Assembly: GCF_900091475.1 (NCBI RefSeq)
Contig: NZ_FMIB01000002.1
Coordinates: forward strand, 3,596,001 to 3,660,000
Reading direction: 5' to 3'
Length of the DNA stretch: 64,000 nt
Origin: Micromonospora chersina
GTDB lineage: Bacteria > Actinomycetota > Actinomycetes > Mycobacteriales > Micromonosporaceae
Part shown: positions 13,391 through 17,838 of the stretch, piece after piece
Layout of the letters: each line of letters starts with the position of its first letter
How positions within the stretch are numbered: the first letter of the stretch is position 1
Program-made: the position numbers and the translations under genes
Notes under the pieces: model-generated
The model's input: only the letters and a program-made list of their open reading frames with translations
What the model was told of the DNA's origin: nothing
Database searches by the model: none

Positions 13391-13759
13391 ATGGCAACGG
13401 TTGAGCTGACCACGGCCAACTTCGACGAGGTGACCGAACGCGACGGCATCGTCCTGCTCGACTTCTGGGCGGACTGGTGCGGCCCGTGCAAGCGCTTCGC
13501 CCCCGTCTACGAGCGCTCGTCCGACAAGCACCCGGACATCGTGTTCGGCAAGGTCGACACCGAGGCGCAGCAGGAGCTGGGCGCCAAGTTCAACATCAGC
13601 TCGATTCCGACGGTGATGGCGATCCGCGACGGCGTGATCGTCTACGCCCAGCCGGGCGCCCTGCCGGAGTCGGCGCTGGAGAACCTGATTGAGCAGGTCC
13701 AGCAGCTCGACATGGACGACGTCCGCAAGAAGCTGGCCGAGCACGGCCACAAGCACTGA
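13391..13759 (+). CDS. thioredoxin
   Basis: 122 residues, full length. WCGPCK at 29-34 is the redox site, and Ile72-Pro73-Thr74 holds the cis-proline. The fold order (LLDFWADWCGPCKRFAPVYE, then VFGKVDTE, then SIPTVMAIRDG) is canonical. A short extra C-terminal tail ends in HGHKH. It reduces disulfides in the cytosol using a thioredoxin reductase, which is not in the window. GGAGAG precedes ATG 13391. A strong hairpin terminator follows at once. Confidence 0.92.
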   Translation: MATVELTTANFDEVTERDGIVLLDFWADWCGPCKRFAPVYERSSDKHPDIVFGKVDTEAQQELGAKFNISSIPTVMAIRDGVIVYAQPGALPESALENLIEQVQQLDMDDVRKKLAEHGHKH

Positions 13760-13775
13760 GCCGACCGGCTCCGAC

Positions 13776-13814
13776 ACACCGGCCGGGTCCCCACCGCGGG
13801 GACCCGGCCGGTGT
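13776..13814 (+). terminator. 17-bp hairpin after thioredoxin
   Basis: Perfect 17-nt arms (13776-13792 and 13798-13814) surround a 5-nt ACCGC loop, followed by CGTTTC. The stem is very GC-rich. It insulates thioredoxin from the HTTM genes downstream. Confidence 0.85.
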
Positions 13815-13918
13815 CGTTTCGCCTGCCCGGGACGCCCGGAAAGAGCGATACGGGCAGCGAGGAATGGACGACGGACCGACGCCGTCCGGACATGTTTCTC
13901 CCGTATCGTCACGAGCCG

Positions 13919-14359
13919 ATGGAGACCTTGACCACCCGCGGGCGTGCCGTCCGACTGGGCGCCACGCTGCTCGGGCTGGCGCTGCTCCTGCTCGGCACCG
14001 TGCGCGGCACCGACGACGACTTCCCGTTCGGGCCGTTCCGGATGTACTCCACCTCCGACCCGGCGGACGCGCCCGCCCCCGACACCCGGGTCGAGGGCGT
14101 GGACCGGACCGGCGCCGTGGTGCCGCTCGGCCAGGACGCCACGGGCATCCGGCGCGCCGAGATCGAGGGCCAGCAGGACCGCTACGCCGCCGACCCGAGC
14201 CTGCTGCGCCGGGTCGCCGAGGCGTACGCCGAGCGCCACCCCGCCGCCCCCGGCCTGGTCGAGGTCCGCATCGTGGTCCGCTGGTACGACATCCAGGGCG
14301 GCCGCCCGACCGGCCGCTGGACCGATCGCACCGCCGTACGCTGGGAGACCGCCCCGTGA
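13919..14359 (+). CDS. single-helix membrane protein of the HTTM pair
   Basis: 146 residues. A basic start (METLTTRGRAVRLGAT), one membrane helix (about 12-30), then an outer domain with DDFPFGPFRMYSTSDPADAPAP and EVRIVVRWYDIQGGRPTGRWTDRTAVRWE. The FPFGPFRMYS segment recalls small proteins encoded next to HTTM genes. ATG 13919 is preferred because TATCGT lies 9 nt upstream; ATG 13892 is the alternative. Its stop overlaps the HTTM start by 4 nt (GTGA), so the two are translated together. Confidence 0.7.
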   Translation: METLTTRGRAVRLGATLLGLALLLLGTVRGTDDDFPFGPFRMYSTSDPADAPAPDTRVEGVDRTGAVVPLGQDATGIRRAEIEGQQDRYAADPSLLRRVAEAYAERHPAAPGLVEVRIVVRWYDIQGGRPTGRWTDRTAVRWETAP

Positions 14360-15246
14360 CCGGCTGGCTGACCGAGGCGGTCCCGCGCGGCCGGGTGGCC
14401 GCCTTCCGCACCCTGGTCTACCTCTTCGTCGCCGCCGACCTGGTGGTCTTCACCCCCTGGGTCCGCACCCGGGTCGACGTGCCCGGCGACCTCTACCAGC
14501 CCCTGCTGATCGGCCGGCTGCTCCCGCTGCCCACCCCCACGTCGGCCCTGGTCGGCGTGATCTTCTGGGTGCTGTTGGCCGTCTCCCTGCTCGCCGCCAC
14601 CGGCCGGGCGCCCCGGCTGCTCGGCTGGACGGTCTTCGCCCTCTACTTCGAGTGGATGATCGTCGCGATGAGCTACGGCAAGGTCGACCACGACCGGTTC
14701 GGCCTGCTCGTCGCGCTGGCCGTGCTGCCGACCGCCGGGCGGGCCCGGCACGGCGACCCGACCCGCACCCAGGCGGGCGGTTGGGCGCTGCGGGTCACCC
14801 AGATCGCGGTGATCTGCACCTACTTCCTGGCCGCCTGGGCCAAGTTCCGCTTCGGCGGCCTGGACTGGGCCACCGGCTCGGTCCTGGCCCGGGCGATCAT
14901 CCGGCGCGGCACGGACCTGGCCGACGTGATCGCCCAGGTGCCGCACCTGCTGATCGTCGCCCAGTTCGGCATCCTGGCCTTCGAGCTGCTCAGCCCGGTG
15001 GTGTTCCTGCTGCCCGAGCGGTGGCGGCTGGCCACGGTCGGCTTCTTCTACTCGTTCCACCTGGTGACCATCGCGACGATCACCATCTCGTTCGCCCCGC
15101 ACCTGGCGGCCATGACCAGCTTCCTGCCCCTGGAGAAGGTGCGCCCGGTGCTCTGGCTCCGGCGCCCGCTCACCCGCCGCCGCGACCCCGCGGGCGGGGA
15201 GAGCACCCCGGTCGCCGGCCCCGAGCCGGCCGTCGACCCCGCCTGA
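14356..15246 (+). CDS. HTTM-domain (vitamin K carboxylase-like) membrane protein
   Basis: 296 residues with about seven membrane helices. YFEWMIVAMSYGKVDHDRFGLLVALAVLP and KFRFGGLDWATGSVLARAI, with FYSFHLVTIATI near the end, are typical of HTTM proteins, distant homologues of vitamin K-dependent gamma-carboxylase. The reaction in bacteria is unknown. It is coupled to the gene before it and converges on a DUF393 thiol protein, a partner type I recall as common for HTTM genes. Confidence 0.8.
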   Translation: MTGWLTEAVPRGRVAAFRTLVYLFVAADLVVFTPWVRTRVDVPGDLYQPLLIGRLLPLPTPTSALVGVIFWVLLAVSLLAATGRAPRLLGWTVFALYFEWMIVAMSYGKVDHDRFGLLVALAVLPTAGRARHGDPTRTQAGGWALRVTQIAVICTYFLAAWAKFRFGGLDWATGSVLARAIIRRGTDLADVIAQVPHLLIVAQFGILAFELLSPVVFLLPERWRLATVGFFYSFHLVTIATITISFAPHLAAMTSFLPLEKVRPVLWLRRPLTRRRDPAGGESTPVAGPEPAVDPA

Positions 15247-15289
15247 GGCCCCGCCGCCGGCTCACGCGTCCGGCGGACCGGGAGTCCGG

Positions 15290-15709
15290 TCAGGAGGTCG
15301 GGCCGGGCCGGCCGGTGGGGCCGTAGAGGCGCTCCCGGGCCTCCTGCGGCAGGGCGCATGCGGCCGTGCCGCCGGGCAGCCGGTGCCGGTTGCGGGCCAC
15401 CCACCGGTACGCGGGCCAGGCCGCCGCCCGCACCGGCGGGAAGCGCAGCCCGGCGCCGGCGACCCGCCAGGCCGGCCCGCTTTCGCCGAGCAGCCTGGCG
15501 ATGGCGTCGGGACCGGCGGCGCGGGAGCCGTCGGCGCCCACCCACTGCACCGCCTCCTCGCACTCGGCCTCCGTCAGCCCCAGCGCCGCCAGATCGGCGA
15601 ACTGCCAGGGGACCACGCGGGCGCCGGTGGGGATCCGGCGCTCGATGAACTGCGCGCAGCGGGTGCAGAACGCGCAGTCGCCGTCGTAGACGAAGGTCGA
15701 CGTCTCCAT
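15290..15709 (-). CDS. DCC-family thiol-disulfide oxidoreductase (DUF393)
   Basis: 139 residues. YDGDCAFCTRCAQFIERR at the N-terminus contains the DxxCxxC motif (Asp9, Cys12, Cys15) with a further Cys18, the mark of the DUF393/DCC family. FADLAALGLTEAECEEAVQWVGADG and GPDAIARLLGESG follow the family layout. ATG 15709 lies 8 residues before the motif. DCC proteins often accompany HTTM genes; here the two are convergent neighbours. The redox partner is unknown. Confidence 0.85.
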   Translation of the reverse strand: METSTFVYDGDCAFCTRCAQFIERRIPTGARVVPWQFADLAALGLTEAECEEAVQWVGADGSRAAGPDAIARLLGESGPAWRVAGAGLRFPPVRAAAWPAYRWVARNRHRLPGGTAACALPQEARERLYGPTGRPGPTS

Positions 15710-15776
15710 GCCTCCATCCTGCACCCCGGCGGTCCCACTCCGGTGGCCGGTGTCCGGCGGGTCACTTGCGCTTCGT

Positions 15777-15801: not shown

Positions 15802-17838
15802 ATGCGCTGGGACAACCTCTCCGCTCCCCCGGACGAGGGGACTCCCGACGGGGCAGCGCCAGCGACTCCACCCCTGCCGCTGGCGCTCCCCGGCGCGATC
15901 GCCCGCACGTTCGACACCCCCGGCTTCGCCGGCATGACGTTCTACGAGGTGCGCGCCAAGTCGATCATCAACCGGGTGCCGGGCCAGTCCCGCGTCCCGT
16001 TCGAGTGGACGATCAACCCCTACCGGGGCTGTTCCCATGCCTGCGTTTACTGCGTTTCCGGTGACACACCGATCCTCATGGCCGACGGCCGCACCAGACC
16101 GATCAGCGAGCTGGAGGTCGGCGACCGTATCTACGGCACCGAGCGGCGCGGGGCCTACCGGCACTACGTGGTGACCACGGTGCTCGCCAAGTGGTCGACG
16201 GTGAAGCGGGCCCACCGGGTCACCCTGGAGGACGGCACCACGCTTGTCGCCAGCGGTGACCACCGGTTTCTCACCGAGCGCGGCTGGAAGCACGTGACCG
16301 GCAGCATGCGGGGTGGCGACCGGCGGCCCTACCTCACCACCCGCAACCGGCTGCTCGGGACCGGCCGGTTCGCGTCCGCACCGAAGCGCTCCGCCGACTA
16401 CCGGCGGGGCTATCTCTGCGCCCTGGTCCGCGACGCCGGCCACCCGGGCAGCCGCTTCCGGCTGGCCACCGCCGAGGAGGAGGCCCTCGCGCGCGCCGAG
16501 CGGTTCCTCGCCGACGCCGGCATCCGCACCGAGCGGATGCCCGGCCCGCCGGTCCGCGCCGGCCGCCGGTCGACGACCGCGATCCGCACCAGCCGACCCG
16601 GCGACGCCGAGGCGGTCGCCGAGCTGATCCGCCCGGCGGACGAGCCGACGGACGACTGGTGGCTGGGCCTCCTCGCCGGCACCTTCGACGCCGCCGGCAG
16701 CTGCCGGCGGGGCGTGTTCCGGATCAGCGTCGGCGACGACGAGAGCCGCGACCGGGCGGGCGCCGCCCTGGACCGGTTCGGCTTCCGGTGGATGCTCGAC
16801 GACCCGGGCACGCTCAACCGGGCACCCCAGCTCCGGCTGACCGGCGGCCTGCCGGAGCGGTTGCGCTTCTTCCACCTCACCGACCCGGCCGTCACCAGCA
16901 GGCGCTCGATCGAGGGCATGGCGCTCAAGTGCCGGGCCCGACTGCGGGTGGCCGCCATCGAGGACCTCGGGCTGGAGCTGCCGCTGTGGGACATCACCAC
17001 CGGCACCGGCGACTTCATCGCCAACGGGGTGGTCAGCCACAACTGCTTCGCCCGCAACACGCACACCTACCTCGACCTCGACCCGGGCGCGGACTTCGAC
17101 CGGAAGGTGATCGTGAAGGTCAACGCCGGTGAGCTGGTCCGCCGGGAGCTGGCCGCCCCGAAGTGGCGCGGCGCGCACATCGCCATGGGCACCAACGTGG
17201 ACTGCTACCAGCGGGCCGAGGGGCGCTACCGGCTCATGCCCCAGATCATCGAGGCGCTGCGCGACTTCGCCAACCCGTTCTCGATCCTGACCAAGGGCAC
17301 ACTCCTGCTGCGCGACCTGCCACTGCTGCGCCAGGCCGCCGAGGTGACCCGGGTCGGGCTGTCCTACTCGGTGGGTTTCGTGGACGAGGCGCTCTGGCGG
17401 GCCGTCGAGCCCGGCACACCGAGCCCGCGCCGCCGCCTCGACGCCGTACGCCAGCTCACCGACGCGGGCTTCTCCGTCGGCGTGCTCATGGCGCCGATCC
17501 TGCCGGGGCTCAGCGACGACGACGAGTCCGTCGACGCCACGGTGGCCGCGATCGCCGCCTCCGGGGCCACCAGCGTCACCCCACTGCCGCTGCACCTGCG
17601 CCCCGGCGCCCGCGAGTGGTACGCGCGCTGGCTGGCCCGGGAGTTCCCGCACCTGGTCCCCCGCTACCGACAGCTCTACCAGGCCGGGGCGTACGCGCCG
17701 CAGGCATACCAGCGGGAGGTGACCGCGCGGGTGCGGATGGCGGCCCGCCGGCACGGGCTGCACCGGGGCGAGGCCGGCGACAACCGTCAGCTGCCCGAGG
17801 CGCCCGCCCCGGTGGCCGAGCAGCTCTCCCTGCTGTAG
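15802..17838 (+). CDS. intein-containing Rv2578c/SPL-like radical SAM protein
   Basis: 678 residues before splicing and ~347 after. The extein begins MRWDNL as in Rv2578c-type proteins. It has FYEVRAKSIINRVP, then NPYRGCSHACVY with Cys77 and Cys81 of CX3CX2C. The third cluster cysteine is replaced by intein Cys1 (residue 84), and after splicing Cys415 takes its place (CFARNTHTYLDLD). GTNVDCYQRAE and LSYSVGFVD continue the barrel. The family is related to spore photoproduct lyase; its reaction is unknown. Unspliced protein cannot build its [4Fe-4S] cluster. ATG 15802 follows an SOS box; ATG 15793 is the alternative. Confidence 0.88.
   Translation: MRWDNLSAPPDEGTPDGAAPATPPLPLALPGAIARTFDTPGFAGMTFYEVRAKSIINRVPGQSRVPFEWTINPYRGCSHACVYCVSGDTPILMADGRTRPISELEVGDRIYGTERRGAYRHYVVTTVLAKWSTVKRAHRVTLEDGTTLVASGDHRFLTERGWKHVTGSMRGGDRRPYLTTRNRLLGTGRFASAPKRSADYRRGYLCALVRDAGHPGSRFRLATAEEEALARAERFLADAGIRTERMPGPPVRAGRRSTTAIRTSRPGDAEAVAELIRPADEPTDDWWLGLLAGTFDAAGSCRRGVFRISVGDDESRDRAGAALDRFGFRWMLDDPGTLNRAPQLRLTGGLPERLRFFHLTDPAVTSRRSIEGMALKCRARLRVAAIEDLGLELPLWDITTGTGDFIANGVVSHNCFARNTHTYLDLDPGADFDRKVIVKVNAGELVRRELAAPKWRGAHIAMGTNVDCYQRAEGRYRLMPQIIEALRDFANPFSILTKGTLLLRDLPLLRQAAEVTRVGLSYSVGFVDEALWRAVEPGTPSPRRRLDAVRQLTDAGFSVGVLMAPILPGLSDDDESVDATVAAIAASGATSVTPLPLHLRPGAREWYARWLAREFPHLVPRYRQLYQAGAYAPQAYQREVTARVRMAARRHGLHRGEAGDNRQLPEAPAPVAEQLSLL
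16051..17043 (+). mobile_element. intein with degenerate LAGLIDADG endonuclease
   Basis: 331 residues (84-414 of the precursor). It begins CVSGDTPILMADG (block A), has a block B with GDH (His154), and ends WDITTGTGDFIANGVVSHN (blocks F and G), with Cys as the +1 residue. All splicing residues (Cys1, His154, His413-Asn414, Cys+1) are present. Between them GYLCALVRDAG (203-213) and LLAGTFDAAG (290-299) look like the two LAGLIDADG helices. The acidic residues are Asp211 and Asp296, but both motifs are degenerate, so endonuclease activity is doubtful. Confidence 0.9.

Follow-up and report, generated by a model that had tools for sequence, protein, structure and literature searches.

We find that a radical SAM gene of Micromonospora chersina very probably carries a self-splicing intein from a widespread mobile family, whose single site is the codon of the third [4Fe-4S] cysteine in Rv2578c-type radical SAM genes, and that this copy is probably now inherited vertically. 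The gene lies within the 64,000-nucleotide stretch of DNA analyzed here, hereafter the window, and occupies positions 15802..17838 of the forward strand, on which its parts described below also lie. Numbered from ATG 15802 (ATG 15793 is an alternative start of the same frame), it encodes a precursor of 678 residues and a spliced product of 347 residues. The N-extein (15802..16050; 83 residues) ends in C77-SHA-C81-VY, supplying cluster cysteines 1 and 2, with Cys81 at position -3. The intein (16051..17043; 331 residues, Cys1 to Asn331, precursor residues Cys84-Asn414) follows, and the C-extein (17044..17838) opens with CFARN, whose first residue, Cys415, is Cys+1 and becomes the third cluster cysteine once spliced. 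The original prediction had placed an intein inside a radical SAM protein at 16051-17043, which our analysis confirms to the base, and its claim that the insertion falls exactly at the third cysteine of CX3CX2C agrees with the flanking motif, C77-SHA-C81-VY-C, interrupted immediately before its last cysteine. The splicing residues that it listed as intact (Cys1, His154, His413-Asn414 and Cys+1) are likewise correct in precursor numbering.

The intein comprises three parts, with limits set by hand. An N-terminal splicing (Hint) part (16051..16326, intein residues 1-92), placed by the TIGR01445 match and column counts, contains the block B sequence S-G-D-H71, in which His71 is precursor His154. 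A degenerate LAGLIDADG endonuclease domain (16387..16905, residues 113-285), whose model matches are I-DmoI-like, has Ala at catalytic-acid positions 129 and 215. A C-terminal splicing part (16927..17043, residues 293-331) bears block F Asp314 and His330-Asn331. These are the residues of a Class 1 intein, save that block B reads Ser-x-x-His instead of Thr-x-x-His, a substitution found in 231 of 233 distinct inteins of the family. The protein scores 914 bits against the NCBIfam model NF038136, an intein-containing Rv2578c family radical SAM protein (cut-off 700; model positions 1-574 of 574), 529 bits against NF038135 (cut-off 430) and 27.6 bits against TIGR01445 intein_Nterm (cut-off 24.5). 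TIGR01443 intein_Cterm is slightly below its cut-off (14.7 versus 15.6), and neither the Hint nor the intein models of Pfam reach their gathering scores. The NF038136 and TIGR01445 scores, together with one common site in 233 distinct inteins, rule out a chance resemblance. The radical SAM assignment follows from CX3CX2C, present in both the precursor and the joined extein, and from PF04055 (45.7 bits versus 29.5).

An AlphaFold2 model of the precursor (71 rows, mean pLDDT 83.2, pTM 0.60) is predicted to combine Hint, LAGLIDADG and radical SAM folds; the 50 listed PDB hits include the TliVMA and PI-SceI inteins, I-DmoI and, at rank 50 (E 7.5e-5), spore photoproduct lyase 4fhg. No second intein N-terminal region was found in this genome when searched at E <= 0.1. 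Elsewhere in the genome, a 1456-residue frame that may encode another Hint-domain protein weakly matches the Hint part (G000:C2:6009434-6009676, locus L002; E 1.8e-4). The family of intein-containing Rv2578c proteins that the original prediction had mentioned does exist, as NF038136; the window's intein is a member of this already catalogued family and by itself adds little. Host family and whole-model match are common to both; the window's member differs in its dead-looking endonuclease, and the model's name is silent on mobility and regulation.

In all, 282 inteins, 233 of which are distinct, were extracted from 322 proteins and loci. Extraction demanded CX3CX2C with its last Cys, a penultimate His, then N/Q/D, and C/S/T at +1. 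Cys1, the block-B His, block-F Asp314, His330, Asn331 and Cys+1 are retained in all 233; the invariance of Cys1 and His330 is by construction of the extraction, that of the block-B His and Asp314 is a free observation, and that of Asn331 and Cys+1 is nearly free. In the three occupied and four empty alleles printed, the flanks join exactly at the cysteine codon. Among 28 loci sampled outside the class, although a few are actually from the class itself, the intein sits at the motif in 21, the site is empty in two, and five have a different upstream motif; in four of these five, what looks like an intein begins at the same cysteine. The original prediction had made its reading depend on the frame being conserved in homologues, and the survey bears this out, with the intein at one site across genus, class and phylum. 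Seven loci of family group f58 (L221-L227) use the same intein site. The extein of one of them (L221, 500 residues) scores 232 bits for the PA0069 family (cut-off 360) versus 145 for Rv2578c (cut-off 430), below both. Elsewhere in the spliced product, Cys137 (NVDCYQ in the window) is invariant in 20 intein-free relatives; several more distant members have NTDPYQ in its place, and the family as a whole therefore does not share this cysteine.

The distribution of the intein is patchy. Among 121 Micromonospora genomes, 42 carry it, 70 are empty as called from match coordinates, one has a gene fragment and eight lack a match better than 1e-40. Of the 42, 36 have a best E of 0 (one frameshifted at the junction) and six are split, shortened or frame-broken. 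The intein-family cut-off is exceeded in 31 of 394 genomes of the class and 14 of 396 of the phylum. On the extein tree (FastTree, 169 rows), at least 27 changes occur among full, mini and empty states. Mini-inteins of 143-189 residues make up 29 of the 233 distinct inteins, and all 12 genomes of group g88 listed with a match possess one of 152 residues, a retention that function could explain too. Inteins are clearly closer than exteins in just 2/190 intact pairs and 3/325 dead pairs, suggesting that few of the sampled inteins jumped very recently. Taken as sequence patterns, the distribution, the state changes and the decay of the endonuclease fit a selfish element. Two loci, L041 (Micromonospora yasonensis) and L170 (genome G092), share the same break in the intein frame just after Cys1; the gene looks disrupted there, with sequencing error as the alternative. 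At L162 (genome G058), the search recovered the radical SAM gene only as a 3' fragment.

Endonuclease status was called intact or dead from two alignment columns. Of the 233 distinct inteins, 161 have Asp and 13 have Glu at position 129, where 25 rows are gapped; an acid (Glu or Asp) occupies position 215 in 104 of the 204 that possess the second motif. In the window both positions are Ala, the neighboring residue 128 being Asp, and the acid that marks an active endonuclease is missing from both LAGLIDADG motifs. For 46 Micromonospora inteins, of which 20 are intact and 26 dead, the Nei-Gojobori method gives a median endonuclease-domain dN/dS of 0.226 for intact pairs (n=190), 0.595 for dead pairs (n=325), 0.554 for mixed pairs and 0.555 for the window's clade (n=120, from 16 rows including one intact), where the purifying selection seen in intact relatives is not found. 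The corresponding medians are 0.148, 0.226, 0.237 and 0.167 for the splicing domain, and 0.151, 0.155, 0.167 and 0.113 for the extein, and the ratio of intein to extein dS is 1.79 in intact pairs, 1.32 in dead pairs and 1.15 in the window's clade. The endonuclease of the window looks dead given the Ala at both acid positions and the relaxed constraint on the domain, and we read its intein as being in a vertical, decaying phase.

The intact residues suggest a conventional route, in which Cys1 would attack, the chain would pass to Cys+1 and Asn331 would cyclize. Cys+1 would then serve as the third ligand of a restored CX3CX2C in the spliced enzyme. With an intact endonuclease, the element would cleave empty alleles and insert a copy of itself; the window's lineage appears to have lost the catalytic acids, after which the intein would be inherited vertically and kept because splicing failure would destroy the enzyme. 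Redox regulation is possible within this scheme, yet unnecessary for it.

The main interest lies with the relatives of the window, which carry a synonymous footprint around the insertion site that is new here. In the five closest pairs, empty and occupied alleles are less identical beside the site. The share of G/C-ending codons in 53 empty Micromonospora alleles is 0.679 in the 20 codons around the site versus 0.949 elsewhere, and in 20 alleles with intact inteins it is 0.767 versus 0.953. The drop is slight or absent in alleles with dead inteins (0.910 versus 0.961, n=26), mini-inteins (0.926 versus 0.939, n=29) and the empty alleles of groups f21 (0.890 versus 0.957, n=20) and f2 (0.838 versus 0.884, n=17); the window itself has 0.85 versus 0.96. 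A general cause in translation or cluster loading is unsupported, as f21 empties, mini-inteins and dead alleles drop little or not at all. A few other empties also have fewer G/C-ending codons in the zone (g22, n=2; g31, n=3; two unclassified, n=2).

In nearest pairs, each sequence being used once, we compared synonymous mismatch up to 10 codons from the site with that in the rest of the gene. Within Micromonospora, the zone exceeds the rest in 24/26 empty pairs (0.34 versus 0.16), 10/10 intact pairs (0.33 versus 0.15) and 20/20 empty-intact pairs (0.40 versus 0.14). Dead pairs of the genus lean upward without significance (0.21 versus 0.14; 8 of 13 up, 5 down), and there is no significant excess in mini pairs (4/12; 0.16 versus 0.20) or f21 pairs (5/9; 0.24 versus 0.25). 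The zone is sharply bounded at about codons -10 to +15, and these 25 codons rank highest of 216 windows along the gene in exposed pairs, versus rank 45 in dead, mini, f21 and f2 pairs. By the example of exposed relatives, where this is the zone of high synonymous divergence, the presumed endonuclease target in the window would comprise a left part of 10 codons (16021..16050) and a right part of 15 codons (17044..17088).

The simplest reading of these sequence patterns is that a circulating active endonuclease may favor target-spoiling synonymous changes, with codon usage relaxing back after its death. Stated in full, intein-free Micromonospora alleles would escape the endonuclease through synonymous changes in the iron-sulfur motif and the endonuclease would follow, a codon-level arms race where amino acids cannot change, leaving a footprint, some 20-25 codons long, that would fade after endonuclease death, as in the window's lineage; we give this reading an even chance. 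The footprint could instead come from co-converted donor flanks or error-prone break repair, with no selection for resistance, an alternative that we consider plausible but lean against, while conversion tracts probably do contribute. In a well-supported clade of 26 rows, AGA occupies codon +4 in 16/16 empty versus 2/9 intact-intein alleles, as flank conversion on homing would give. Independent-pair tests, moreover, come down to five pairs on well-supported branches, too few for significance. Beyond Micromonospora the footprint also fails to replicate: elsewhere in the class, intact inteins have six pairs up and six down and dead inteins 9/7, while the counts are 7/4 for other empties of the family, 6/1 for f2 empties (p 0.12), 2/2 each for f39 and f58 empties, 1/2 for f58 inteins, and 7/3 for inteins outside the class (f58 included). 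On the other side, allele shuffling within a genus should not raise the divergence of pairs that are already distant, and yet in distant pairs the zone exceeds the rest in empty (0.48 versus 0.29) and intact alleles (0.40 versus 0.28), compared with 0.31 versus 0.28 in dead ones. The sharp limits of the zone also argue against conversion or repair, as does the concentration of AGA within it in empty alleles (24 of 112 Arg codons, versus 6 of 1422 outside). Outside the class, 22 of 25 inteins show a lower share of G/C-ending codons in the zone, with a mean difference of -0.19. In Micromonospora, a G/C-ending share of 0.75 or less is found in 38/53 empty and 11/20 intact alleles, a difference that is not significant (p 0.26); AGA occupies codon +4 in 24/53 empty versus 2/20 intact alleles (p 0.006, taken without phylogenetic control).

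Escape by synonymous change has partial parallels in known systems. Homing-cycle theory, as far as the available portions of PMC3229294 describe it, models an empty allele of lower susceptibility and treats escape as costly to the host because the motif is conserved. Its empty, active and dead states are also present in the family described here; in Micromonospora, unlike in that theory, escape would be synonymous. With the WHO homing elements of yeasts, target genes that differ in sequence resist a LAGLIDADG-type nuclease (PMC7282813), as proposed here for the Micromonospora empties, although in that yeast system the element adjoins the gene and resistance arrives with the element, according to the same partial source. 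The available portions of PMC3229294, PMC7282813, PMC10643990, PMC4071816 and PMC1508164, which concern the homing cycle and target resistance, report no such synonymous footprint. Nor do the titles among the matches listed for target resistance, which does not disprove its existence elsewhere.

The original prediction went further, proposing that splicing acts as a switch linked to redox or DNA damage; the intein itself is confirmed, and that interpretation as a whole is partly supported, the switch being unproven. Its premise, that the unspliced precursor cannot assemble the cluster, is not secure: Cys1 itself fills the third place, so the precursor still reads CX3CX2C. The AlphaFold2 model gives no confident geometry at this motif (residues 77-80, 417-422 and 424-429 have pLDDT <50). 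The DNA-damage link is based only on the name 'DNA repair photolyase' carried by some homologues and on the resemblance of the fold to that of spore photoproduct lyase. The MoaA of P. abyssi, itself a radical SAM host, makes a redox role possible by analogy. The intein of that protein is described as redox-trapped by a native Cys-3/Cys1 disulfide (PMC10663303, PMC3922620, in the parts available). Like the window's intein, it has a -3 Cys that can pair with Cys1, as Cys81 and Cys84 (CX2C) could; the host there is an archaeal MoaA, and the likeness lies in this pair. Two mycobacterial inteins are actinobacterial like the window's: M. smegmatis DnaBi1 is described as an oxidative-stress sensor whose splicing is inhibited by oxidants (PMC6195587), and SufB, an Fe-S assembly protein, has a mycobacterial intein (PMC8891592), each according to the sections available. 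DnaBi1 differs in being class 3, with its disulfide, Cys48-Cys118, inside the intein (PMC6195587, same sections).

By this precedent, an oxidized Cys81/Cys84 disulfide would block the first step of splicing, holding an oxygen-sensitive enzyme as precursor until conditions become reducing, which we regard as unlikely here. Both cysteines are in the window and in every extracted intein, though extraction required them, and genes for a DCC1-type thiol oxidoreductase and a thioredoxin are nearby. However, Cys-3 is fixed by the cluster motif regardless, empty alleles included; no intein Cys beyond Cys1 is conserved (the best other column reaches 150/233, and Cys1 is the sole Cys in 32/233), and an extra conserved cysteine as a built-in switch was rejected on the same 233 distinct inteins. 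The DCC1 neighbor is not tied to the intein, occurring at 15/24 empty, 16/39 full and 1/5 mini loci with enough flank, and was rejected as a partner since it adjoins empty alleles too; and 70 of the 121 genomes of the genus have the gene with no intein at all. Nothing in these comparative data therefore singles out regulation. A trap in which CX3CX2-Cys1 of the precursor binds a cluster or other metal, blocking Cys1 so that splicing reports iron-sulfur status, is most improbable: all three cysteines are in the unspliced chain, with Cys1 standing in for the third, but the loop is of low confidence in the model. Just upstream of the gene, positions 13391-15712 of the window encode a thioredoxin, a protein that narrowly misses the HTTM threshold, and a DCC1-like thiol-disulfide oxidoreductase. 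Among the literature matches listed for Rv2578c, intein with radical SAM, intein with MoaA and intein with photolyase, none concerns this intein by title.

With its Cys-3/Cys1 pair, the window's protein offers a second radical SAM enzyme in which the redox-switch idea can be tested, and the reading of the footprint as escape is testable with short DNA duplexes. The survey yields a genus in which one intein at an Fe-S ligand occurs in empty, intact, dead and mini states, together with comparison groups. If the footprint is indeed one of escape, it would answer how a host resists a homing element that is aimed at an unchangeable motif.
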